From: Sphaerolaimus hirsutus
Taxonomy: Eukaryota > Nematoda > Chromadorea > Monhysterida > Sphaerolaimidae
NCBI GenBank assembly: GCA_964036195.1
Contig: OZ038458.1
Span: 17,125,832-17,189,831 of the forward strand
Reading direction: 5' to 3'
DNA length: 64,000 nucleotides
Below are positions 2,540 to 29,160 of the stretch, in pieces (position 1 is the stretch's first letter; every line of letters begins with the position of its first letter). The translations under genes were made by a program, and so were the position numbers. Below the pieces are notes generated by a model that saw only the letters and a program-made list of their open reading frames with translations, did not search any database and was not told the origin of the DNA.

Positions 2540-3240
2540 GCGTATTCACGATAAGCTAGAATGCTTGTGATGGTGTACCTGTAAAAAACATCAATACCAT
2601 GTGTAGACAAAATTGACTGCTTCGACTATAGCCACAATACACCTAACACATTTCAATATGTAAATTGAAGATTAGCATTTATTGCGATACTTGCCATGTG
2701 AAATCCTGCGCGATCGCTCGATCGGCTTTTTAGATCGAAAATTCATACCCTGTCGATTTCAGGGGCCAGTTCCGCCAGTGGTAGAGTAAAAAGGAAAACT
2801 TTAATTTTCACTCTTTGTGGAACCAACACCAGGTGGCAGTCCCAAAGTGTCAACGATGTATCCAAATCTTATGTTTTGTATCCAAATATTATTATCAAAC
2901 ATAAGATTTGGATACAAAAACATAAGATCTGGATACAAAAACATAAGATTTGGATACACAATTGACACTTTGGGACTGCCCCTGGTGCTGCAAAGTAGCG
3001 TAGAGTCAAGTGAAGAGTGAAGTGGAAAGTTTTCCTTTTTACTGTACCACTGGCGGAATTGGCCACTGGTGATGAAATCACCGCGTACCAGGTGGGACAA
3101 TTCGCTTTTTGAACTAGATACTGCTTTCAAATTTTTTCGCTTCATATTTCAACTCGCAAGTGGGTTGGTTGAGAAGAGAAGGAAGGTTACCAGTTAACAA
3201 CCAAAATAAAAAACAGGGAAATGTTCAAAAAGTAACGTGA
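2540..3240. repeat. Segmental repeat, partner of 17620-18010
   Basis: The sequence around the foldback at 2763-3068 is a diverged direct copy of 17620-18010. Shared landmarks include GATCGAAAATTC, the GTGGGTTGGTTGAGAAG-like stretch and TATGTAAATT. The copy at 17.8 kb lacks the 306-bp foldback, so the two loci form a filled/empty pair. Confidence 0.7.
2763..3068. mobile_element. Introner-type foldback, GGCCAGTTCC ends (second subfamily)
   Basis: Left GGGCCAGTTCCGCCAGTGG, right CCACTGGCGGAATTGGCC. The interior is a long hairpin with words such as ATCCAAATCTTATG and GGATACAAAAACATAAG. The empty site is at 17843/17844 (TTTCAG then GTGATAATATCAC). Its outline matches the element at 30539-31013. 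No splice-competent ends are intact here. Confidence 0.75.
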
Positions 3241-3885: not shown

Positions 3886-6352
3886 TAGTGATGGAAAAGC
3901 GCCAGGAAAAATGGCGCCAGGCGCCAATGGCGCCATGGCGCCATTCAAAATAATGGCGCCGGGCGCCAATGGGCGCCAGAGAAAATGGCGCCAGGCGCCA
4001 ATGGCGCCACGGCGCCATCTGAAAAAATGGCGCCGGGCGCCAAAAACAATGGCGCCAACGATAAAAGTCACTTTTTAGCATGTAAACTGGTGGAAAATAT
4101 AAATGGGAAAATCACTTAATTGTATTTTACAAATCCCACATGCAAGCTGTTAGGCTTTCATCTTGTGTGAGGGTGCCCCCAAGTATTTACTATATATACC
4201 CTAGGGGACACCCCCCTCAGGCCACCCTTGATGCAGGAAAAAATTTTTTCATGTTTTTTTTTCTGGCAAATATAAATGGGACTTCCATACAAATTTTTGT
4301 TCCTGATGAAACAAAAATTATTGAAAAATTTTTTTCTGGACATTTGAGACCAAAAAGTTTTTTTGACATTGGTAGATTGTAATTATGTGCAACTTTTCTA
4401 CCCAGTCAGAACCCCCGGAAGCCCCACACAATGGTGGCATTGTTGATCAAACATTAAATTTTTTTTGGAGAAAAATGTAGGTTTGAAAAAGTCAACAATC
4501 CACTATCCCAAGCTATTCATGGAGCACATGGGGCCAGAATTGGCTTGTTTGGTGTCAGGGGCAACATATGGCTGCTCCTGGGCTCCATTTTTGCATTCAA
4601 ATATTTTTTATAGCCAATGATAAAAATGGCCCTGCGTAGAGGGGGCACTCGCCTGACAGCTTGTCTGGCGCCTGCAGTGTCTTGACGCAAATGACAAAAT
4701 ACTTGTGCCCACCCAATGTGGACACTAATTATTTGATAAAAACCTATAGGGGCCAATGGGCAATGTGCCCTGTATCTAGTGTGACTGAGATAAACAAATG
4801 AAGAGGTCATGCCCAGAAAATTTAAAATCACAGTTTTTCAATCACAAGTACAATTTTGATAATCGCAAAGTTTAAAATCATTGTTGTCATGTTTTTGTGG
4901 TCCATGCCTGCTTGCTGGGGGCAAGTTTTGTGGGAGTGAGTGGACCAGGGGCCAAATTATACTCCCAAGTCACCAGCAGTCAAAATACGGCTGTGGGAAA
5001 GCTATAAGTAATTTTTTTGTTTTTGAAAAAGACCCAACACAAGTGCATTCATTGCTTGTGTTGGCAGCACACAAAAAAATCGGCTGTGCACTTTACTGCA
5101 GCTGTATTTTGTGTGTTTTTTGAAAATTCCCATTTATATGTGCCGGGGAAAAAATTGGAAAAAAACATTCATCAATCTGTAGCAGCAGAACAGGGGGGTG
5201 CCAGGGGGTGCCACTTGGCATATATGTAGGCAAATGTTGTGGGCATCCCCACATCAAATGGCAGCCATATTGGGCTGCACGTTTCCCTGTGAGATAGTTA
5301 TGAAAAATGAGGTACCTGATTTCCCATTTATATTTGCCACCAGTTTATATCATTTCATAACAGAAGCTTTTTTAGCAGAGGAATATGTGCCGTATTTTCT
5401 CCAAATACCCCTAGAATTAATGGGTGTTCGAGCGACCTCCAAAGGCGAGCTCATACCACATGGGGTATTTCGAAGGAGTATTCCAAATACCCCTTCGAAA
5501 TACCCCCTGTGGTCTGAGCTAGCTGGGGAAAAAATAACCCCAACTCAACGTCGACTCCCCCATCTGTAATATTTAAAGTACATCATGTTTGCAATGAACA
5601 TGATGTTTTAATGGCTGCCAATTTACATCGCAGCTATACTGTATTTCCTCGAAATACCCATAGGGGGTTTATTTTTCAGTGTGAGAATTTAGAGGGGGCA
5701 ATTTCGGGGGGGGGATATTCGATGGGTGGTTGTATTATCTCCCCAGTAAATTTTCGAGACATAGGGTAGTAAAGATGGGCTTTTACATACCAAAAATTGG
5801 TAATAAAAGTGACAACACAGCATATAAACATTTAGATGTATTATATCAACGTAGATGGCTACACAAACTAAATATGTAGTCTTATGTGTGGCTGTGACGC
5901 ATATTGGCATCGATTAATACATCATGTACCTTGTGTACATGATGTAAATAGCTTATTCCATACGGAGGTATTTCGAGGGGGGTATTTTTTATTCAGCTCG
6001 AAAACACATGGGGGTATTTCAAGGGAGGTTAATTCTAGGGGGTATTTCAAGGAAATACGGTACATTGACTGCTTTGTGCAACGATCTACGATAAAATGTC
6101 CTATTTGTTCACATTTATTCGCGAAATTTTGGCGCCATTTCTGGCGCCATCCAAAACAATGGCGCCGGGCGCCTAATTGGGGCCAGCGAAAATGGCGCCA
6201 AGCGCCAAGGGCGCCATGGCGCCATTCGAAATAATGGCGCCAGGCGCCAGATGGCGCCACAGAAAAGGGCGCCAAGCGCCAATGGCGCCATGGCGCTGGC
6301 GCCCTTTGGCGCCATTAAAGGGCGCCAGCACCATGGCGCCATTCCATCACTA
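3886..6352. mobile_element. hAT-like element, TAGTGATGG ends, GGCGCC words
   Basis: TAGTGATGGAAAAGCGCC at the left, GGCGCCATTCCATCACTA at the right, flanked by GAGCCCGG at 3878-3885 and 6353-6360 (exact 8-bp duplication). GGCGCC-word blocks lie at 3900-4060 and 6130-6340. The 2 kb between is AT-rich with other insertions, including a MITE at 5637. No transposase domain recognised. Confidence 0.9.
5637..6062. mobile_element. TACCGTA/TTCGAGG MITE nested in hAT-like element
   Basis: Left TACTGTATTTCCTCGAAATA (one change), right CAAGGAAATACGGTA, G/C-run interior with TTCGAGG words. A further damaged copy, TGCCGTATTTTCTCC, begins at about 5388. Confidence 0.8.
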
Positions 6353-8990: not shown

Positions 8991-9235
8991 TACCGTATTT
9001 CCTCAAAATACCCCCCGTCAAAATAGGCACTATGAATTTGTGGTCCGGGAAATGCATAACAGACGTTCAAAACACGTACTGTGTTACGTTAGAACATCGT
9101 TTATACCAACTACATCCTTATATAAGGCTGTAAAAACTTATACATGGTGGTTATTGTTGCATTTATCACGTTTTTCTCTCAAAATTTTCACTCTGAAAAA
9201 ATATACTCCCCGGGGGTAATTATAGGAAATACGGT
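8991..9235. mobile_element. Short TACCGTA MITE
   Basis: TACCGTATTTCCTCAAAATA at the left, TAGGAAATACGGTA at the right. It contains the AACACGTACTGTGTTACGTT block shared with the first 220 bases of the window. Its right end lies inside the reading frame of the secreted-peptide gene at 9188-9578. Confidence 0.8.
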
Positions 9236-9578
9236 ATTCTTAAGTGTAGGTATATCTTTAATGTCGTCTACCGAACGAACCACCACTGCACCGGCGTGCT
9301 TGCAGTTGCACCACTGCGGACCGTGGCCCCTGTCGCAATAGCACGCAATAGCGTGGGTGCCGCACGTGACGCTGACCAACAACAACTGGGGGCAGTCCCG
9401 GACCCTGGAAAATGTAAAATGTTTTGTAAAGTGTCGGATGTCATGTAAAATGCCCTGTAAAATGGCAAACACGTTTGTCATTGCACAGGGCATTTTACAT
9501 GACTTCTGACACGTTGCATGACACGTGACAATTTACAGGGTCTGAGACTGGCACCAGAATGGGCAGCAAATGATTCAT
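9188..9578 (-). CDS. Predicted secreted cysteine-rich peptide, copy 1 (two exons)
   Basis: Function unknown. Exon 1 is 9555-9578 (8 codons from ATG); exon 2 is 9188-9385. Joined in phase 0 they give a signal peptide (MNHLLPIL then a Leu/Val core) and a short mature part with a CYC...WCNC pattern, 73 residues to the first stop. It aligns with copies 2, 3 and 5 through the signal peptide and cysteine core. The intron is a hairpin element (9386-9554) inside the signal-peptide codons, where copies 2 and 3 have none. The last 16 or so codons lie in the inserted MITE 8991-9235, so the C-terminus is probably replaced. The start is supported by the ACACCATG leader also seen in copies 2 and 5. It could be a decaying copy. 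Confidence 0.6.
9386..9554 (-). mobile_element. Candidate introner forming the intron of copy 1
   Basis: On the minus strand it starts GTGCCAGTCTCAGACCCTG and ends GGGACTGCCCCCAG. Its two halves fold back through TGTAAAATG and CATGACATTT words. The exon before ends CTG and the intron ends CAG. Removing it leaves an open frame that aligns without a gap to copy 2. Confidence 0.8.
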
Positions 9579-12264: not shown

Positions 12265-13285
12265 TAACGATGGCAAAAAAAGATTCGAAAATTCGAAAAC
12301 ATTTTCGAATTTTCCAATTTTTTCAGAATTTTCGAATTTTTATTTCACCCCTAGAAAAAACACTTAAAAATCGATTTATTTTTCAAAAAATTCGAAAATT
12401 CGAAAATACTTTTTGAATTTTTTAGGGAATTCAAGGCAAAAAAGCGCACTCATAGGTTCAACGTGCTAAATAAAACGACAAATGATACGCGGTGCGTATG
12501 AAAAAGCGAAACAAAACAAAAAAAACGTCCAAAAACGTTGAAATGTATAATGTGAAATGTCTTGCAAGTGTCAAAAGTTATGAAAATGCTCTGGAAAATG
12601 GCTAACATATTTGAAATTTTCCGCAGCATTTCCATGACTTAAGACAATGTGCATAACACTTGACATTTCACAGAGCATTTTACAGGTGTCCGAGACTGCC
12701 CATAGGAACTGCACATATTTATATGTAAAAAGGAATGTGATCAAAGATATACTCCGGCCACATCACACCTTACAATGAAATCTACCATATCCCATCTGAA
12801 TAAAAGAACCAAAAAAAAATTTCATCATATTTATCAAAGCAATCTGATAAATAAAATTTAAAAAATGTACTGCTTGTCCTTTTATTCAGATGGGATATGG
12901 TAGATTTCATTGTAAGGTGTAATGTCGCTGGAGTATAAGAGTGGTTTCAAGTATTGGTTTGAGAAGTACCCATATCTTGTGAAGTTAGCACTGTATGCAC
13001 TGAGTACACTCAGTGTGTCACCCACTTCCAAAACAGTCCAAATTCTGCGTTTATAGCTTCAGATTCAATATTTTTCCAAAAAAATTCGAAAATTATTTGA
13101 AAAAATTCGAAAAATAGCCCAAAAAATTCGAAAATTGCCAAAAAAGATTCGAAAATTCGAAAATTCGAAAATTAAATACGAAATTTGAAAATTAATGTCA
13201 GGAAAAATTCGAAAATTCGAAAATACATTTTGGATAAAACACTTAAAAATTTAAATACTTTTTTTGGGAGGGTTTGCCATCGTTA
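12265..13285. mobile_element. hAT-like MITE, TAACGATGG ends, TCGAAAAT words
   Basis: TAACGATGGCAAA to TTTGCCATCGTTA, flanked by CCGACCAC at 12257-12264 and 13286-13293 (exact). AAATTCGAAAATTCG words fill both ends. The middle contains an eroded introner-like hairpin (about 12539-12690) and a palindrome (about 12741-12945). Sister of 22081-23326. Confidence 0.92.
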
Positions 13286-15627: not shown

Positions 15628-16290
15628 TCATTGCATCGATTTCGGTTGATTTTTCTCATAATCCCATGTCTGATCGCCACCTGGGGGCAGTCCTATTCCC
15701 TTTAAAATGCCCTGTAAAATGTAAAATGTCATGCAAAGTGCCAAAAGTCGTTTGCCATTTTGCAGGGTATTTTACATGACTTGGCACTTTGCATGACATT
15801 TTACATTTTACAGGGCATTTTACAGGGTCTGGGATTACCACCTGGCTCCACCGCCCTGACTGCTCCATCCTCATCGCAGGGGCACCACTCAGTCCACGAG
15901 CCCCTGCTGCACTTGCACTCCAGCGGAAATGGGGGGTGCTGGGGGCACTCCCGGACCCTGTCAAATGTCTTGCAAAGTGTCAAATTTCATGCAAATTGTC
16001 TTAAAAAGTGTCAAATGTTATGTAAAATGCCCTGTAAAATCGCATACATACATGGCATTTTACATGACTTTTACGCTTGACATTTGACATTTTACAGGGC
16101 ATTTTTTATTACTTTTGACAATTTGCATGACATTTGACATTTTCCATGGCATTTTACATGACTTTTGACACTTTGCATGACATTTTGCAGGGCATTTTAC
16201 AGGGTCCGGGAGGGGCACCTGGTAGACGGCGGCGTAGGTGCTGCACGTCATGGTGACCACCAACAGCAGAATGGGCAGCAGTTTGTTCAT
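15628..16290 (-). CDS. Predicted secreted cysteine-rich peptide, copy 2 (three exons, two introner introns)
   Basis: Function unknown. Exons: 16219-16290 (24 codons), 15842-15938 (97 nt) and 15628-15680 (53 nt with TGA). They join to 73 residues. Residues 1-20 are a signal peptide (MNKLLPILLLVV...CSTYA). The mature part begins AAVYQHPPFPLEC, followed by CKCSRGSWTEWCPCDEDG and a polar tail with a TWDYEK motif. Copy 3 has the same length and most of the same residues. The two introns fall between VYQ and HPP (phase 0) and within the Gly of EPGG (phase 1). Copy 3 is uninterrupted at both points. Both introns are hairpin elements with CAG at each flank. The ACACCATG leader is shared with copies 1 and 5. 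Confidence 0.75.
15681..15841 (-). mobile_element. Candidate introner, second intron of copy 2
   Basis: 161 bp. Minus strand starts GTGGTAATCCCAGACCCTG and ends AGGACTGCCCCCAG, with CAG before and CAG at the end. It folds into a near-perfect hairpin (CATTTTACAGGGCATTTTAC pairs with its inverse). Phase 1; copy 3 lacks it. Confidence 0.85.
15939..16218 (-). mobile_element. Candidate introner, first intron of copy 2
   Basis: 280 bp. Minus strand starts GTGCCCCTCCCGGACCCTG and ends GGTCCGGGAGTGCCCCCAG. CAG precedes it and terminates it. It is made of repeated TGTAAAATG, CATGACATTT and GTGTCAAATG words with at least two hairpin modules. Phase 0; copy 3 reads straight through this site. Confidence 0.87.
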
Positions 16291-16567
16291 GGTGTGATTA
16301 TTGGTGTCTTTCCGTTGTGGCTCGTTAGATCTGTAACGTTTTGGAATACGGGTGTGCAGACAGCTTTTGTATTTATTGATGTGTTAGGTGTCGGAAAGTG
16401 GTTCTGTGATCTGCTAAATGACATTTTCAAATGCGAGGTATGGGGGCTATTGCAAGTACTATACTGCTTTAAAAGTGTATAATTTGAAGCAAGAGTGTCA
16501 TCAAAATTAAGGCATTCAATGCGCATAATGCCTAGGTATAAAACATTGCAGCTGTTCAAAGTATACC

Positions 16568-17024
16568 TACCGTATTTCCTCGAAATACCCCCCCCCGGGG
16601 GTGATTGTTTCAGAGTGCGAATTTTGAGGGGGGGGGGGTAAACGAGGGGGGGGGGTATTTCCATGGGGGGCTTATTATTTCGCCAGAATTTTTTTGAAAT
16701 TCCAGTACTAAATTGTCGTCTGAAACGTACACACACGTTGAAAAATGCAACAATAACCGCCATATACGAGTCTATTGACCTATATAAGTATGTAACACTG
16801 TTATAGCGTAACAATTCATTGTTTTTAATGTGTGTTTTGCATTGCCCGAATCACAAGCCGACCGCAGTTTTGTCATGTAAATATGTTCTCTGTACACTCA
16901 ATTTGGGGGGGGGGGGTATTTCGAGGGGGCTAATAAATTCATAGTGGCCATTTTGGGGGGATTTCGAGACGGGGGGTATTTCGAGAGGGGTATTTCGAGA
17001 GGGGTATTTCGAGGAAATACGGTA
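16568..17024. mobile_element. TACCGTA/TTCGAGG MITE
   Basis: TACCGTATTTCCTCGAAATA to TCGAGGAAATACGGTA with long G-runs inside. It shares the GTGTGTTTTGCATTGCC internal block with the copy at 28172. Confidence 0.87.
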
Positions 17025-17097
17025 TGCTCATTAAGATTGATCTTTGAACAATTGTTCTCAAAAAATGTAGCTGCTCCGCTATTGGCACTGTCACAAC

Positions 17098-17247
17098 CAG
17101 GGTTGGCTTTAGTAAAATTATTTTTACGAAAATTGTAGTTAAATTGTATTTTTTTATTTTCTATTAATGGTTCCTTTTTTTAATTTTATTATTCACTTTT
17201 CCATTTTATTTTAATTTTATTTTTTTTCTGAGATTTTGCCAACCCTG
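17098..17247. mobile_element. Short hAT-like MITE, CAGGGTTGG ends, TTTTATTTTA words
   Basis: CAGGGTTGGCTTTAG to TTGCCAACCCTG, 150 bp, interior TTTTATTTTAATTTTATT. Flanks ACAACCAG and GCAACCAG agree at 7 of 8 bases only if the element's first CAG overlaps the duplication. Confidence 0.7.
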
Positions 17248-18349
17248 GCAACCAGTTGAAACCAGTCCCACACAACAATATATTTTTGATTAGAGTTTCT
17301 CCTCAGGACTGTCCTCAGTACGAAAATGCCTAAGCATGAGCTGTGTCAAAATATGAAGTAAAATACATCAAACGTACAAAAAAGCTCACGCGGTATAATA
17401 ATATTTAAAGTAAATAGGCAAAGGTATGAAAATTGGTGATTTTCAGTCAATATTTGGGCAAAATTTCACAAAAACGACTGACTGCTGGGTGTACGACTGC
17501 TTTTTTGCCAATCGTGGCTAAGGGTTTCATGAATCATTAGTTGTGTGTGTTTGTCTAGCTGACTTCGCATTCTTTTGCGCATATTTATTTTTTTGAACAA
17601 ATAATATCCCGCGTATGCATGCACAATAGGATAGGATGCTTGTGATAAATATTTAATAGTGTACTAGTAAAAACATAAACCATGGCTCGACAAAATAAAC
17701 TGGGCTTAGACCTATATAAACACATTCCAATATGTAAATTCAAGATTAGCGTTTATTTAAATTCTGCCATATGCAATGCAACCTAGTGCTCGATCTCTCA
17801 ATTTGGTTTTCAGATCGAAAATTCCATACGATGTCTGTTTCAGGTGATAATATCACGCGTACCGGGCGGAACAATGGAATTTTTGCACTGTTTTGTTTTT
17901 TGAACTACTGCTTTCTACTCCGAGTTCGCAAGTTGGGTAGTTGAGAAGAGAAGGAAATTTACCACCAAAACAAAAACTGGTGGGGATGTTAAGAAAAGTA
18001 ATGTGAACTGCTATACAAATCGACTTAGCTGGCACGGTTTTAGTCCTTTGCGAACTCGACCGAACAGATATCCAAACAGAAAGCTTTTTTGACATGCCGC
18101 CACCGGCTTTACAATGATTTGATTCGTTGAATACAGTGCTGCACCTTCATGCACGATTTGCTAAAAACTAACAAATGTGAATTCGAAAACATTTCATTCA
18201 AAAATTTCTGATTTCAACTAGGTAATCTGCGGAGCACAACACGAGAAAAAAATCAGCAAAAATATCACAATTAAAAAATGTTTATCTGCGATCAAACACT
18301 TCCCTCCTGATCTGGCTCACGCATAAATAACTATAAAAATACATTCGTT
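17248..18349. other. Intergenic with empty insertion site; no gene supported
   Basis: 17620-18010 is the empty partner of 2540-3240, with the junction at 17843/17844. The rest is AT-rich. A minus-strand frame at 17853-18095 has no recognisable domain. Confidence 0.5.
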
Positions 18350-18777
18350 TCAGTCCATCGGTCTCGGTTTGCCCTTTCCATAATCCCAAGTGTCATCACC
18401 GCCGGCCGGCACAGCCCTGGGCCAGTCCCAGACCCTGTAAAATGCCCTGTAAAATGTCAAATACCATGCAAAGTACCAGAAGTAATGTAAAATGCCCTGG
18501 AAAATGGCAACTCGGTTTTGTATTTTCTATGACATTTGTAATGACCATTGACAAATTTTGTATCACATTTGTCCCGACATTTGACACTTGACTTGACACT
18601 TTACAGCGCTCGGGACTGGCACCTGACTGCTCCATCCTCATCGCAGGGGCACCACTCAGTCCACGAGCCCCTGCTGCACTCGCACTCCAGCGGAAATGGG
18701 GGGTGCTCGTAGATGGCCGCGTAGGTGCTGCACGTGATGGCGACCACCAACAGCAGAGTGGACAGCAATTGGTTCAT
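18350..18777 (-). CDS. Predicted secreted cysteine-rich peptide, copy 3 (two exons)
   Basis: Function unknown. Exon 1 is 18623-18777 (51 codons plus 2 nt); exon 2 is 18350-18416 (1 nt plus 21 codons and TGA). The protein is 73 residues, the same length as copy 2. A signal peptide (MNQLLSTLLLVV...CSTYA) is followed by AAIYEHPPFPLEC, CECSRGSWTEWCPC and a TWDYGK tail. The single intron interrupts the Arg codon of GAVR (phase 2), where copy 2 is continuous. Conversely, both copy-2 intron sites are continuous here. A TATA-like TTTATAG on the minus strand lies about 65 nt before the ATG, just downstream of a 48-bp-arm hairpin. It is the least disturbed member of the family and the best guide to the ancestral reading frame. 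Confidence 0.75.
18417..18622 (-). mobile_element. Candidate introner forming the intron of copy 3
   Basis: 206 bp. Minus strand starts GTGCCAGTCCCGAGCGCTG and ends TCTGGGACTGGCCCAG. TCAG precedes it and CAG ends it. It carries the same words as the copy-2 introns. Phase 2. Confidence 0.85.
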
Positions 18778-18849
18778 GGTGGGTTTGTGGGGATTTGTTT
18801 GAGCCAGGTTTCAGCTTGAGACAGACACTAAAAGATACGCTATAAAGCG

Positions 18850-18971
18850 GGAATTAGAGCTCAGCGTCGATTCGACGTGAAATGATGACGTGAAATGACG
18901 TCGTGAAATTAATTACACGACGACATTTCACGTCATCATTTCACGTCGAATCGACGCTGAGCTCTAATTCC
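18850..18971. repeat. Perfect hairpin with 48-bp arms, GACGTGAAATG words
   Basis: 18850-18897 is the exact inverse of 18924-18971. The arms include GCTCAGCGTCGATTCGACGT. It is related to the GACGTAAAATG palindromes at 439 and 8498, with G in place of A. It lies 70 bp upstream of peptide copy 3. Confidence 0.85.
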
Positions 18972-19044
18972 GGCCTTATAGATGCTATATTGTCACAAAA
19001 GCAATAATATTCTGAGACGAATAAATTGCAAGCAAGTACACAAG

Positions 19045-22080: not shown

Positions 22081-23326
22081 TAACGATGGCAAAAAAAGAT
22101 TCGAAAATTCGAAAACATTTTCGAATTTTCGAATTTTTCCGGAATTTTCGAATTTTTAATTCACCCCTAGAAAAAACACTTAAAAATCGATTTATTTTTC
22201 AAAAAATTCGAAAATTCGAAAATTCGAAAATACTTTTCGAATTTTTCAGGCAATTCAAGGCACTCTTAAGTTCAACGTACTAAATACAACGAAAATTGAT
22301 ACGCGGTGCTTATGAAAAAGCGAAACAAAACAGAAAAAAGGTCCAAAAACGTTGAAATGTAAACTGCCCTGTAAAATGTGAAATGTCATGCAAAGTGTCA
22401 AAAGTTATGAAAATGCCCTGGAAAAATGGCAAACATATTTGCCATTTTCCACAGCATTTCCATGACTTTAGACACTTTGTATAACACTTGACATTTCACA
22501 GAGCATTTTACAGGTGTCTGGGACTGCACATAGGAACTGCACATATTTATAAGTAAAAGAGATGTGATCAAAGATATACTCCAGCGACATTACACTTTAT
22601 AATGAAACCTACCATACCCCATCTGAATAAAAGAACAAACATAAAAAAATTTCATCATATTAATCAAATTGCTTTGATAAATATGATGAAATTTTTTTTG
22701 TTTGTTCTTTTATTCATGGTAGATTTCATTGTATTTAGGCGTAATGTCGCTGGAGTATAAGAGTGGTTTTGAGTATTGGTTTGAGAAGTACCCATATTTT
22801 GTGCAGTTAGCACTGTATGCACTGAGTACGCTCAGTGTGCTATACTCAGGCGAAATTACACCCTACATTTTTCTGGTGGTAACACTCCATCATGACGTCA
22901 TAACCGCAGTCCGCACTGAACTTACGGCTGACTGAACTGGTTCGGAGTCAGGATGAAATGGAGTGCAGTGGTGAATCAGTTCACAAGTTTTCAGTTGGAT
23001 GTCTGCCAGCCAAAGATATAAATCATATCTATTTGTAGATTAGCATGTCTGCCGAGTATAGCCACTACCAAAGCAGTCCAAATTCTGTGTTTAAAGCTTC
23101 AGATTCAATATTTTTCCAAAAAAAATTCGAAAATTATTTGAAAAGATTCGAAAAATGGCCAAAAAAATTCAAAAATTGCCAAAAAAGATTCGAAAATTCA
23201 AAAATTCAAAAATTAAATTCGAAATTCGAAAATTAATTCCAGGAAAAATTTGAAAATTCGAAAATTCATTTTATAAAAAACACTTAAAAATTTAAATACT
23301 TTTTTTTGGAGGGTTTGCCATCGTTA
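22081..23326. mobile_element. hAT-like MITE, TAACGATGG ends, TCGAAAAT words
   Basis: TAACGATGGCAAA to TTTGCCATCGTTA, flanked by CATGGTAT at 22073-22080 and 23327-23334 (exact). Sister of 12265-13285, with the same two internal hairpin modules (about 22363-22520 and 22560-22760). Confidence 0.92.
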
Positions 23327-23904: not shown

Positions 23905-26845
23905 ACTTCACTCCATAAAAATGGTGCCATTTTAGACTAAGTGGCACAACTCCATAAAAATTGTGCCATTTTGGAGTCAATGGCGCCACTCCATAAAAAT
24001 TATGCCATTTTGGAGTCAATGGCGACACTCCACAAAAATGGCGCCATTTTGGAGTAGATGGCGCCACTCCATAAAAATGGCGCCATTTTGGAGTAGATGG
24101 CGCCACTCTGTAAAAATGCTGCCATTCTGGAGTAGATGGCGCAACACCATAAAAATGGTGCTGTTTTGGAGTCGATAGCGCCACTCCGTAAAGATGGCAT
24201 CATTTTGGAGACGGTGGCGCCACTCCATAAAAATGACACCATTTTGGAGTCAATGGCGCCACTCCATAAAAATGGCGCCATTTTGGAGTAGATGGCACCA
24301 CTCCATAAAAATTGCGCCATTTTGGAGTCAATGGCGCCACTCCATAAAAATTACGCCATTTTGGAGTCAATGGCGGCACTCCACAAAAATGGCGCCATTT
24401 TGGAGTAGATGGCGCCACTCCATAAAAATGGCGCCATTTTGGAGTAGATGGCGCAACGCCATAAAAATGGCGCTGTTTTGGAGTCGATTGCGCCACTCCG
24501 TAAAAATGGCGCCATTTTGGAGTCAATGGCACCACTCTGTAAAATGGCGCTTTTTTGGAGTCGATGGCGCCACTCCGTAAAAATGGCGCCATTTTGGAGT
24601 CAATGGCGCCACTACGTAAAAATGGCGCCATTTTGGAGGTGATGGCGCCACTCTGTTAAAATTGCATCATTTTGGAATCGATGGCGCCACTCCGTAAAAA
24701 TGGTGCTGTTTTGGAGTCGATAGCGCCACTCCGTAAAAATGGCATCATTTTGGAGACGGTGGCACCACTCCATAAAAATGACACCATTTTGGAGTCAATG
24801 GCGCTACTCCATAAAAATGGTGCCATTTTGGAGTAGATGGCACCACTCCATAAAAATTGCGCCATTTTGGAGTCAATGGCGCCACTCCATAAAAATTACG
24901 CCATTTTGGAGTCAATGGCGGCACTCCACAAAAATGGCGCCATTTTGGAGTAGATGGCGCCACTCCATAAAAATGGCGCCATTTTGGAGTAGATGGCGCC
25001 ACTCCATAAAAATGCTGCCATTTTGGAGTAGATGGCGCAATGCCATAAAAATCGTGCCGTTTTGGAGTCGATTGCGCCACTCCGTAAAAATGGCATCATT
25101 TTGGAGACAATGGCGCCACTCCATAAAAATGACACCATTTTGGAGTCAATGGCGCCACTCAATAAAAATGGCGCCATTTTGGAGTAGATGGCACCACTCC
25201 ATAAAAATGGCGCCATTTTGGAGTAGATGGTGCCACTCCATAAAGATGTTGCCATTTTGGAGTAGATGGCGCAACGCCATAAAAATGGCGCTGTTTTGGA
25301 GTCGATTGCGCCACTCTGTAAAAATGGCGCCATTTTGGAGTCAATGGCACCACTCCATAAAAATTACGCCATTTTGGAGTCAATGGCGGCACTCCACAAA
25401 AATGGCGCCATTTTGGAGTAGATGGCGCCACTCCATAAAAATGGCGCCATTTTGGAGTAGATGGCGCAACGCCATAAAAATGGCGCTGTTTTGGAGTCGA
25501 TTGCGCCACTCCGTAAAAATGGCGCCATTTTGGAGTCAATGGCACCACTCTGTAAAATGGCGCTTTTTTGGAGTCGATGGCGCCACTCCGTAAAAATGGC
25601 GCCATTTTGGAGTCAATGGCGCCACTACGTAAAAATGGCGCCATTTTGGAGGTGATGGCGCCACTCTGTTAAAATTGCATCATTTTGGAATCGATGGCGC
25701 CACTCCGTAAAAATGGTGCTGTTTTGGAGTCGATAGCGCCACTCCGTAAAAATGGCATCATTTTGGAGACGGTGGCACCACTCCATAAAAATGACACCAT
25801 TTTGGAGTCAATGGCGCTACTCCATAAAAATGGTGCCATTTTGGAGTAGATGGCACCACTCCATAAAAATTGCGCCATTTTGGAGTCAATGGCGCCACTC
25901 CATAAAAATTACGCCATTTTGGAGTCAATGGCGGCACTCCACAAAAATGGCGCCATTTTGGAGTAGATGGCGCCACTCCATAAAAATGGCGCCATTTTGG
26001 AGTAGATGGCGCCACTCCATAAAAATGCTGCCATTTTGGAGTAGATGGCGCAATGCCATAAAAATCGTGCCGTTTTGGAGTCGATTGCGCCACTCCGTAA
26101 AAATGGCATCATTTTGGAGACAATGGCGCCACTCCATAAAAATGACACCATTTTGGAGTCAATGGCGCCACTCAATAAAAATGGCGCCATTTTGGAGTAG
26201 ATGGCACCACTCCATAAAAATGGCGCCATTTTGGAGTAGATGGTGCCACTCCATAAAGATGTTGCCATTTTGGAGTAGATGGCGCAACGCCATAAAAATG
26301 GCGCTGTTTTGGAGTCAATTGCGCCACTCTGTAAAAATGGCGCCATTTTGGAGTCAATGGCACCACTCTGTAAAATGGCGCTTTTTTGGAGTCGATGGCG
26401 CCACTCCGTAAAAATGGCGCCATTTTGGAGTCAATGGCGCCACTACGTAAAAATGGCGCCATTTTGGAGGTGATGGCGCCACTCTGTAAAAATTGCATCA
26501 TTTTGGAATCGATGGCGCCACTCCGTAAAAATGGCGCTGTTTTGGAGTCAATGGCGCCACTATATAAAAATGGTGCCATTTTGGAGTCGATGGCGCCACT
26601 CTGTAAAATGGCGCTTTTTTGGAGTCAATGGCGCCACTACGTAAAAATGGCACCATTTTGGAGGTGATGGCGCCACTATATAAAAATGGTGCCATTTTGG
26701 AGTCGATGGCGCCACTCCGTAAAAATGGCGCCATTTTGGAGTCAATGGCGCCACTACGTAAAAATGGCGCCATTTTGGAGGTGATGGCGCCACTCTGTAA
26801 AAATGGTGCTGTTTTGGAGTCAATGAATGGCACCACTCTGTGATC
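23905..26845. repeat. 39-bp tandem array, about 75 copies, with 1013-bp higher-order repeat
   Basis: The unit is centred on CCATAAAAATGGCGCCATTT followed by TGGAGTAGATGGCGCCACT, 39 bp. The ATGGCGCCAT core is a perfect palindrome. Variant units recur in the same order at exactly 1013-bp spacing (for example 24448 and 25461, 24739 and 25752), so a block of 26 units was duplicated as a whole. As 39 is divisible by 3, several frames stay open on both strands (up to 284 codons). These are composition artefacts, not genes. Confidence 0.95.
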
Positions 26846-27751: not shown

Positions 27752-27892
27752 TTATTGAATTTGACACCAGTATGTCATTAAGCGCTCAACGCACTTACAT
27801 TCCATAGGCCAGTCTGGATGCCTCCATATGGCCGCGTGGCTGCACAAACTCATGGTTGCAATCAGGAAGATGATGGTTATTTTCGGGGGCAT
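27752..27892 (-). CDS. Predicted secreted cysteine-rich peptide, copy 4 (short, single exon)
   Basis: Function unknown. One open exon of 46 codons plus TAA. MPPKITIIFLIATMSLC is a signal peptide, then AAIWRHPDWPMECKC and TYWC. Each landmark (HP, P, ECKC, TxWC) lines up with copies 2 and 3, but the stop comes two residues after the position of the last cysteine pair, so the CPC and the polar tail are missing. It is either a shortened family member or a decaying copy whose 3' part was lost. An introner-like hairpin lies about 50 bp upstream (27942-28138). Confidence 0.55.
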   Translation of the reverse strand: MPPKITIIFLIATMSLCSHAAIWRHPDWPMECKCVERLMTYWCQIQ

Positions 27893-28964: not shown

Positions 28965-29160
28965 CTATTTCGAGGGGCACGTCACGCTGACTAATAACTA
29001 GGGCAGTCCCAGACGCTGTGAAATGTCAAATGTAATGCTAAGTGTCAGATTTAATGAAAAATTGCACATACGTTTGTCATTTTACATTTGGCTCATTGCA
29101 TGACATTTGACAATTTACAGGGTCTGGGAGTGGCACCAGAATGGGTAGCAAATGATTCAT
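28965..29160 (-). pseudogene. Secreted-peptide gene copy 5, truncated by MITE sequence
   Basis: Exon 1 is 29137-29160, eight codons identical in sense to copy 1 (MNHLLPIL). A hairpin intron (28998-29136) sits at the same codon as in copy 1. Exon 2 starts at 28997 with LLVSVTC and then runs into CCCCTCGAAATAG from a MITE fragment (about 28915-28976), stopping at once. The leader upstream (ACACCAATACTGACACCATG) matches copies 1 and 2. The intron predates the duplication that made copies 1 and 5. Confidence 0.7.
28998..29136 (-). mobile_element. Candidate introner in copy 5
   Basis: 139 bp. Minus strand starts GTGCCACTCCCAGACCCTG and ends TCTGGGACTGCCCTAG. It is orthologous in position to 9386-9554; the last triplet is TAG here and CAG there. 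Confidence 0.78.

Follow-up and report, generated by a model that had tools for sequence, protein, structure and literature searches.

The origin of new introns is a long-standing question, and a 64,000-nt stretch of DNA from the nematode Sphaerolaimus hirsutus (assembly GCA_964036195.1, contig OZ038458.1, positions 17,125,832 to 17,189,831 of the forward strand), hereafter the window, raises it on a small scale: how did two paralogous genes for a secreted-type peptide come to carry related introns at positions that they do not share? The answer that we favour, and hold to be very probable, is that these introns are introners, derived from a short non-autonomous DNA transposon (a hairpin with inverted ends), copies of which would have inserted after CAG/CTG-like triplets in the exons of the peptide genes. 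This one stretch brings together introns at four positions that such an element would have made, paralogues with the empty sites and an element copy nested in another repeat, which would make the step from transposon to intron readable.

The genes at the centre of the analysis are copies 2 and 3 of a small family (Table 1), with the predicted introns I1 and I2 in copy 2 and I3 in copy 3, all three of which start with GTG and end with CAG. When these are spliced out on paper, both copies have a 222-nt coding sequence (CDS), 73 codons and a stop, and the two differ by 31 substitutions and 0 indels; the original prediction, in which copies 2 and 3 encode 73 residues each that align without gaps, was correct on this count, as were its coordinates and gene models. 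The lengths of I1, I2 and I3 are 1, 2 and 2 modulo 3, none being divisible by 3, and in-frame stops are met in both copies if the introns are left unspliced. From the reading frame and the splice sites, we infer that the elements are spliced. Comparison of the two CDSs gives an alignment score of 297 (maximum of 24 in 200 shuffles), whereas the 300-nt flanks of the two copies score 20 and 23 (maxima of 30 in 200 shuffles each). Because the CDS aligns while the flanks do not, and because there is no indel among the 31 substitutions, these data argue for coding constraint on copies 2 and 3. In the translations, CxC-x7-W-C is present in copies 1, 2, 3 and 5, and a fourth Cys in copies 1-3 only; four peptide sequences searched against Pfam at E up to 0.1 matched no family, and none of the 22 stretches of viral contigs that match a peptide pattern is a relative. 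Approximately 60 bp upstream of copy 3, there is a 142-bp palindrome (18840-18981) with 71-nt arms that are 94% complementary and no spacer.

Table 1. Peptide genes, predicted introns and related elements in the window (positions are those of the window)
Feature	Position	Strand	Description
Copy 2 gene	15628..16290	-	73-aa secreted-type peptide; 3 exons: 16290-16219, 15938-15842, 15680-15628
Intron I1 (copy 2)	16218-15939	-	280 nt hairpin element; after codon 24; phase 0
Intron I2 (copy 2)	15841-15681	-	161 nt hairpin element; after nt 169; phase 1
Copy 3 gene	18350..18777	-	73-aa paralogue; 2 exons: 18777-18623, 18416-18350
Intron I3 (copy 3)	18622-18417	-	206 nt hairpin element; after nt 155; phase 2
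Copy 1 gene	9188..9578	-	If spliced, 73 codons and a stop (end hand-counted from translation); tail apparently runs into a repeat
Intron of copy 1	9386..9554	-	169 nt; after codon 8; element family of I1-I3
Copy 4	28977..29160	-	Truncated peptide-gene copy; element 29136-28998 at the intron position of copy 1; acceptor TAG
Copy 5	27752..27892	-	Short relative, uninterrupted; 46 codons and a stop (ends hand-counted); degraded element just upstream, ~28140-27940
Candidate intron	32031-31050	-	982 nt; intron-type ends GTGCCAGTCCC...CTGCCCCCAG; other repeats inside, by eye
Candidate intron	31013-30539	-	475 nt; intron-type ends, different interior; strong hairpin
Nested element copy	2833..2984	+	Left end GTGGCAGTCCC, right end GGGACTGCCC then CTG; sits in inverted-repeat element 3068-2760
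Outer inverted-repeat element	3068-2760		Ends CAGTGGCCAATTCC / CAGGGGCCAGTTCC; hosts the nested introner-family element
Degraded element copy	12543..12695	-	Within a larger repeat also found at 22357-22523
Degraded element copy	22357..22523	-	Within a larger repeat also found at 12543-12695

Each of the two copies is continuous at the intron positions of the other, as had been predicted, and the empty sites can be read in both: TACGAG/CACC for I1 and CCGGCCG/GCGG for I2 in copy 3, and GTCAG/GGCG for I3 in copy 2 (slash, site of the intron). Removal of the three introns restores the length of the paralogue at all three sites, and for I1 and I3 the whole length difference consists of the element and a single triplet. 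At the intron position of copy 1, copies 2 and 3 are continuous, and the comparison is gap-free over 12 nt on either side. One gene family holds related introns at four positions that are not homologous and that cover all three phases, and given this relatedness each of the four needed an insertion. Of the predicted intron gain by element insertion with preservation of the frame, insertion as such therefore stands, whereas the gain of I1 and I2 (or of I3) after the duplication depends on the absence of a retrocopy step. The 5' flanks of copies 1 and 4 are related as well (score of 91, shuffled maximum of 34), and because both the intron position and this flank are common to the two copies, their intron is shared through duplication. 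This intron goes beyond the original prediction, as do the further end pairs and the conversion-like tract described below. Abundant repeats, recognized by eye by ends like TACCGTATTTCCTCGAAATACCCCCC and by C and G runs, lie at 13.4-14.0, 14.7-15.0, 16.6-17.0, 20.6-21.0, 28.2-28.6 and 32.1-32.5 kb and elsewhere; one TACCGTATTTCCTCGAAATACCCCCC-type repeat apparently replaces the end of copy 4 and another apparently meets the tail of copy 1.

That all three introns belong to one hairpin element family, as originally proposed, is borne out by their blastn relationship, by their shared ends and by their folds. Among the first 150 matches listed by blastn, to which these figures refer, the best E values are 1e-27 for I2-I3 and 4e-20 for I1-I3, both of them in opposite orientation, which the similarity of the two hairpin arms allows, and 1e-18 for I1-I2, in the same orientation; relatives of I1-I3 among these matches also lie at ~9.4, 12.6, 22.4, 28, 29, 29.9 and 31.1 kb. 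Compared to 30 resampled sequences in each case, the predicted folding energy is -114 vs. -56 ± 10 kcal/mol for I1, -87 vs. -33 ± 7 kcal/mol for I2 and -72 vs. -48 ± 8 kcal/mol for I3, the latter being the weakest excess (~3 standard deviations); the candidate intron 31013-30539 folds at -295 vs. -87 ± 10 kcal/mol in resampled sequences. End-to-end identity among I1, I2 and I3 in the same orientation is 46-58% of the alignment length, and the best-kept parts are the ends, CAG-GTGCCAGTCCC on the left and GGGACTGCCCC-CAG on the right. Terminal inverted repeats (TIRs) are present (for example, GTGCCAGTCCC / GGGGCAGTCCC), and the general layout is triplet-GTGCCAGTCCC ... GGGACTGSCCC-triplet.

A weight-matrix search for paired ends, with matrices trained on the intron ends and a threshold of 14, identified 13 pairings, which comprise 7 distinct elements (I1, I2, I3, the intron of copy 1, 32031-31050, 31013-30539 and 2833-2984) together with cross-pairings and strand duplicates; the random expectation from 100 order-1 Markov sequences is a mean of 0.02 and a maximum of 1. 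As intron ends served for training, the independent support comes from 2833-2984, which scores at both ends although it lies outside the training set. The element of copy 4 was missed by this search, and all pairs that reach threshold 14 lie within the first 32.1 kb of the window, all 64 kb of which were covered by the copy-number search for the element. Two pairs that appear at threshold 12 only were not counted, namely 5214/4639, where no hairpin is seen by eye in 4560-5280, and 39855/40129. The ends are kept while the interior varies: 32031-31050 and 31013-30539 have the ends of the family, and the second has another interior, itself an extreme hairpin. There is no Rfam match at gathering scores and no tRNA in the window, and viral contigs scanned for exact matches to a repeat end, an element end and an element interior yielded nothing, as did prokaryote genome contigs scanned for a repeat end.

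Eight independent elements are readable at both ends: I1, I2, I3, the element of copy 1 (with that of copy 4 counted as one), 32031-31050, 31013-30539, the nested element and the outer element; the element upstream of copy 5 is too degraded for this tally. The left end starts with GTG in 7 of the 8, the exception being the outer element (TGG), and the right end, read inwards, starts with GGG in 7 of the 8, the exception being I3 (GGC). The flanking triplets are CAG on both sides of I1, I2, I3, 32031-31050 and 31013-30539, CTG and CAG in copy 1, CTG and TAG in copy 4, and CAG and CTG for the nested and the outer elements. The right-hand triplet ends with AG in all 7 intron-type insertions (CAG in 6, TAG in copy 4), compared to CTG in the two repeat-borne elements. 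The single triplet at the empty sites is GAG for I1, CCG for I2, CAG for I3, and CTG for the codon-8 site in copies 2 and 3. According to the introner survey of Gozashti et al. 2022 (PMC9860276), duplication of the target and preference for the site are indistinguishable in the case of introns that are always preceded by AG.

Under the favoured reading, the element would insert after a CAG/CTG-like triplet in an exon, where its left end would supply the GT donor beside the exonic CAG or CTG, its right end would supply a C-rich run, and the right-hand CAG would supply the AG acceptor; the spliceosome would then remove the inserted length and leave the protein unchanged. The nested copy, inside another repeat, is bounded by GTG at one end and by GGG at the other, and this one copy suggests that the GT donor is part of the element.

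Several observations weigh against this account. Only 2 of the 4 empty sites are an exact CWG, the other two (GAG and CCG) being one base off, and copy 1, the nested element and the outer element each have one W base on the left and the other on the right; because of this mismatch, a 3-bp target-site duplication (TSD) is not established. Six of the introns contain 42 GTR and 21 YAG internal cryptic sites. Most of these are paired in the predicted fold (35 of the 42 donors and 14 of the 21 acceptors), which would hold for any hairpin, and with exon flanks included in the fold, exposure of the true splice sites is inconsistent; the argument that the hairpin masks cryptic splice sites was dropped as non-specific. 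The ratio of nonsynonymous to synonymous substitutions between copies 2 and 3, 0.134/0.245 = 0.55 (NG86), is only mildly low and is distorted by the conversion-like tract. Finally, end-like sites that score above 15 have no partner at 4639, 58536 and 59434 and in a simple repeat at 63.85-63.96 kb.

The differences between copies 2 and 3 are unevenly distributed: 1 in the 83 nt between the sites of I1 and I3, vs. 30 in the remaining 139 nt (Fisher's test, 4e-6). No stretch with one difference or none is longer than nt 71-158 of the CDS, which nearly coincides with the interval between the insertion sites at 72 and 155, and none of 20,000 permutations reached this length. In genomic terms, an 86-nt block that is 99% identical (15855-15940 and 18622-18707) is flanked by the sites of I1 and I3, and the remainder of the CDS is ~78% identical. 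Gene conversion limited by the insertions is the simplest account of this tract and a likely one, and the near-identity between the two sites suggests that new introns can bound later gene conversion.

Presence and absence of the introns could, in part, reflect loss, if the introns are ancestral and were removed precisely or by retrocopying from spliced RNA. A single step of reverse transcription strips several introns together, and copies 2 and 3 have no alignable flanks, as expected for a retrocopy, although age alone also explains this. We nevertheless consider such a history improbable. Related introns at four non-homologous positions require an insertion at each; a retrocopy could account for I1 and I2 missing in copy 3 or for I3 missing in copy 2, never for both, such that whichever of the two were the retrocopy would have gained its own intron or introns (I3, or I1 and I2) afterwards. 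Moreover, copies 1 and 4 share an intron position and 5' flank like ordinary duplicates.

It is somewhat less probable still that these are dying gene copies hit by a hairpin transposon, in which the GT and AG are an unused side effect of the element termini. The 31 substitutions without an indel or stop in the 222 nt of copies 2 and 3, next to flanks that no longer align, weigh against such decay, as does the AG in the right-hand triplet of every intron-type insertion where the repeat-borne elements have CTG. On the side of this explanation are the richness of the window in repeats, the truncation of copy 4, the not strongly lowered dN/dS ratio and the GTG end of the nested element.

It is very unlikely that the elements spread when excised intron RNA was spliced back in reverse, the route put forward for the introner-like elements of fungi, even though the proto-splice-site model also predicts insertion beside CAG. 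The inverted terminal repeats and the copy inside another repeat fit DNA transposition, and fungal introners are described in PMC9860276, in the part of it that concerns them, as lacking TIRs and TSDs. That I2 and I3 are one ancestral intron the boundaries of which slid by 14 nt, which was considered because only 14 nt of coding sequence separate the two, and to which one could add that the 14 nt of copy 3 match the end of I2 at 7/14 positions, that the 14 nt of copy 2 match the start of I3 at 5/14 and that I2 and I3 are slightly closer in opposite orientation (z = 18.2), can be given hardly any credence because, as exon, the two 14-nt segments agree at 9/14 positions (P ~0.005 for unrelated DNA at 28%) and because other intron pairs are closer than I2 and I3 (z = 14.5 for I2-I3 in the same orientation, vs. 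27.6 for I1 and the intron of copy 1 and 19.0 for the introns of copies 1 and 4, which are shared by descent).

Apart from these genes and elements, the window contains a condensin SMC4 gene on the minus strand, with exons over 63684-40952 (>20 kb), the best PDB match of which is the SMC4 chain 9f5w_B (E = 7e-66). The element ends are absent from the ~5 donors and 10 acceptors that are legible by eye around the SMC4 exons (the exon borders are not proven), and these splice sites look ordinary. A search of prokaryote genome contigs with the SMC4 exons returned at least 59 loci (at least 595 pattern matches); one of these, positions 2-172 of a contig labelled Nomurabacteria, is SMC4-like, with 72% identity to the gene in the window over residues 4-60, and perhaps represents eukaryotic contamination. 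A long minisatellite at ~23980-26830, with a unit of ~39 bp (GCGCCATTTTGGAGT...), is open in several frames.

We compared the elements with known intron-generating systems and transposons. Of 3,325 genomes, 175 were reported to have introners, mainly in aquatic groups; among animals and land plants only two groups, both of them animals, had any (PMC9860276). In the same source, TIRs are recorded for 72 of 177 assessable introner families, most families resemble non-autonomous DNA transposons, and outside ascomycetes most show signs of DNA transposition. The introns described here resemble introners in that related introns occur at different positions with similarity up to the splice boundaries, in that most insertions leave the length of the mRNA unchanged, and in that the element would carry its own 5' site and co-opt a 3' site, a combination already described in that survey. 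An example given in PMC9860276 has 4-bp duplications and no inverted repeats, whereas here there are inverted ends, a hairpin interior and a CAG/CTG-like triplet target. The survey pipeline, as described in the same source, discarded similar introns in genes with similar proteins; pairs such as copies 2 and 3 would accordingly be filtered out, and because this filter was applied in a large published scan, cases of this kind may be under-counted.

The introner elements of Amoebophrya (PMC7789003) are likewise hairpin introns, with inverted repeats of 8-20 nt near their termini and 3-5-nt direct repeats at the boundaries; they were, however, defined among introns with non-canonical splice sites, whereas the intron-type copies in the window have GT-AG boundaries. 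The introner-like elements of fungi (Collemare et al. 2015, PMC4457414) are similar in that recent gains were found in members of multigene families and that sliding was considered and rejected. They differ in that the available text of that paper contains neither of the words 'inverted' and 'hairpin', and in that the fungal type lacks TIRs and TSDs as PMC9860276 summarizes it; the inverted repeats present here speak against an element of this fungal type.

Among DNA transposons, the closest parallel is the NuwaI group of PHIS, which are related to PIF/Harbinger; their target-site duplications are CWG, and their TIRs, 12-61 bp long, generally open with GGG (Han et al. 2015, PMC4482050); the pages of that paper drawn on here report NuwaI in animals only. 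The likeness lies in the CWG-type triplet beside a right end that starts with GGG; the differences are that the left end here is GTG, not GGG, that the triplet duplication is inexact in three cases and that 2 of the 4 empty sites are one base off CWG. The fit to NuwaI is therefore only partial, and membership of the elements in this group is not shown. Autonomous relatives in PHIS would be expected to encode a DDE transposase together with a Myb/SANT protein; no transposase was found here, though none was sought systematically and the open reading frames of the window were not scanned for one. A hAT element was rejected, given that this superfamily needs a TSD of 5-8 bp (as stated in the relevant passage of PMC4482050), whereas the element plus one triplet fills the length difference at I1 and I3. 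Of 1,303 papers matched in a literature search for a link between introners and Harbinger-type transposons, none of the 12 listed contains the word 'introner', which is not proof that such a link is absent from print. A tentative possibility is that a NuwaI-type transposon became an intron maker through a single base change, a G-to-T at the left end that would turn CAG/GGG...CCC/CAG into CAG/GTG...CCC/CAG (slashes, element boundaries). Because only the short ends would have to be kept, the hairpin interior would be exchangeable, as in 31013-30539, and the new introns would bound gene conversion between paralogues. If the idea of a CWG target and a GGG end is true, there is a group of transposons the target triplet of which already matches the exon-intron boundary, and the birth of an intron could be a one-base event. 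Taken together with the known systems, what is new here is the element family itself, the paralogues that serve as reciprocal empty sites for each other, and the partial fit to a CWG target and a GGG end.

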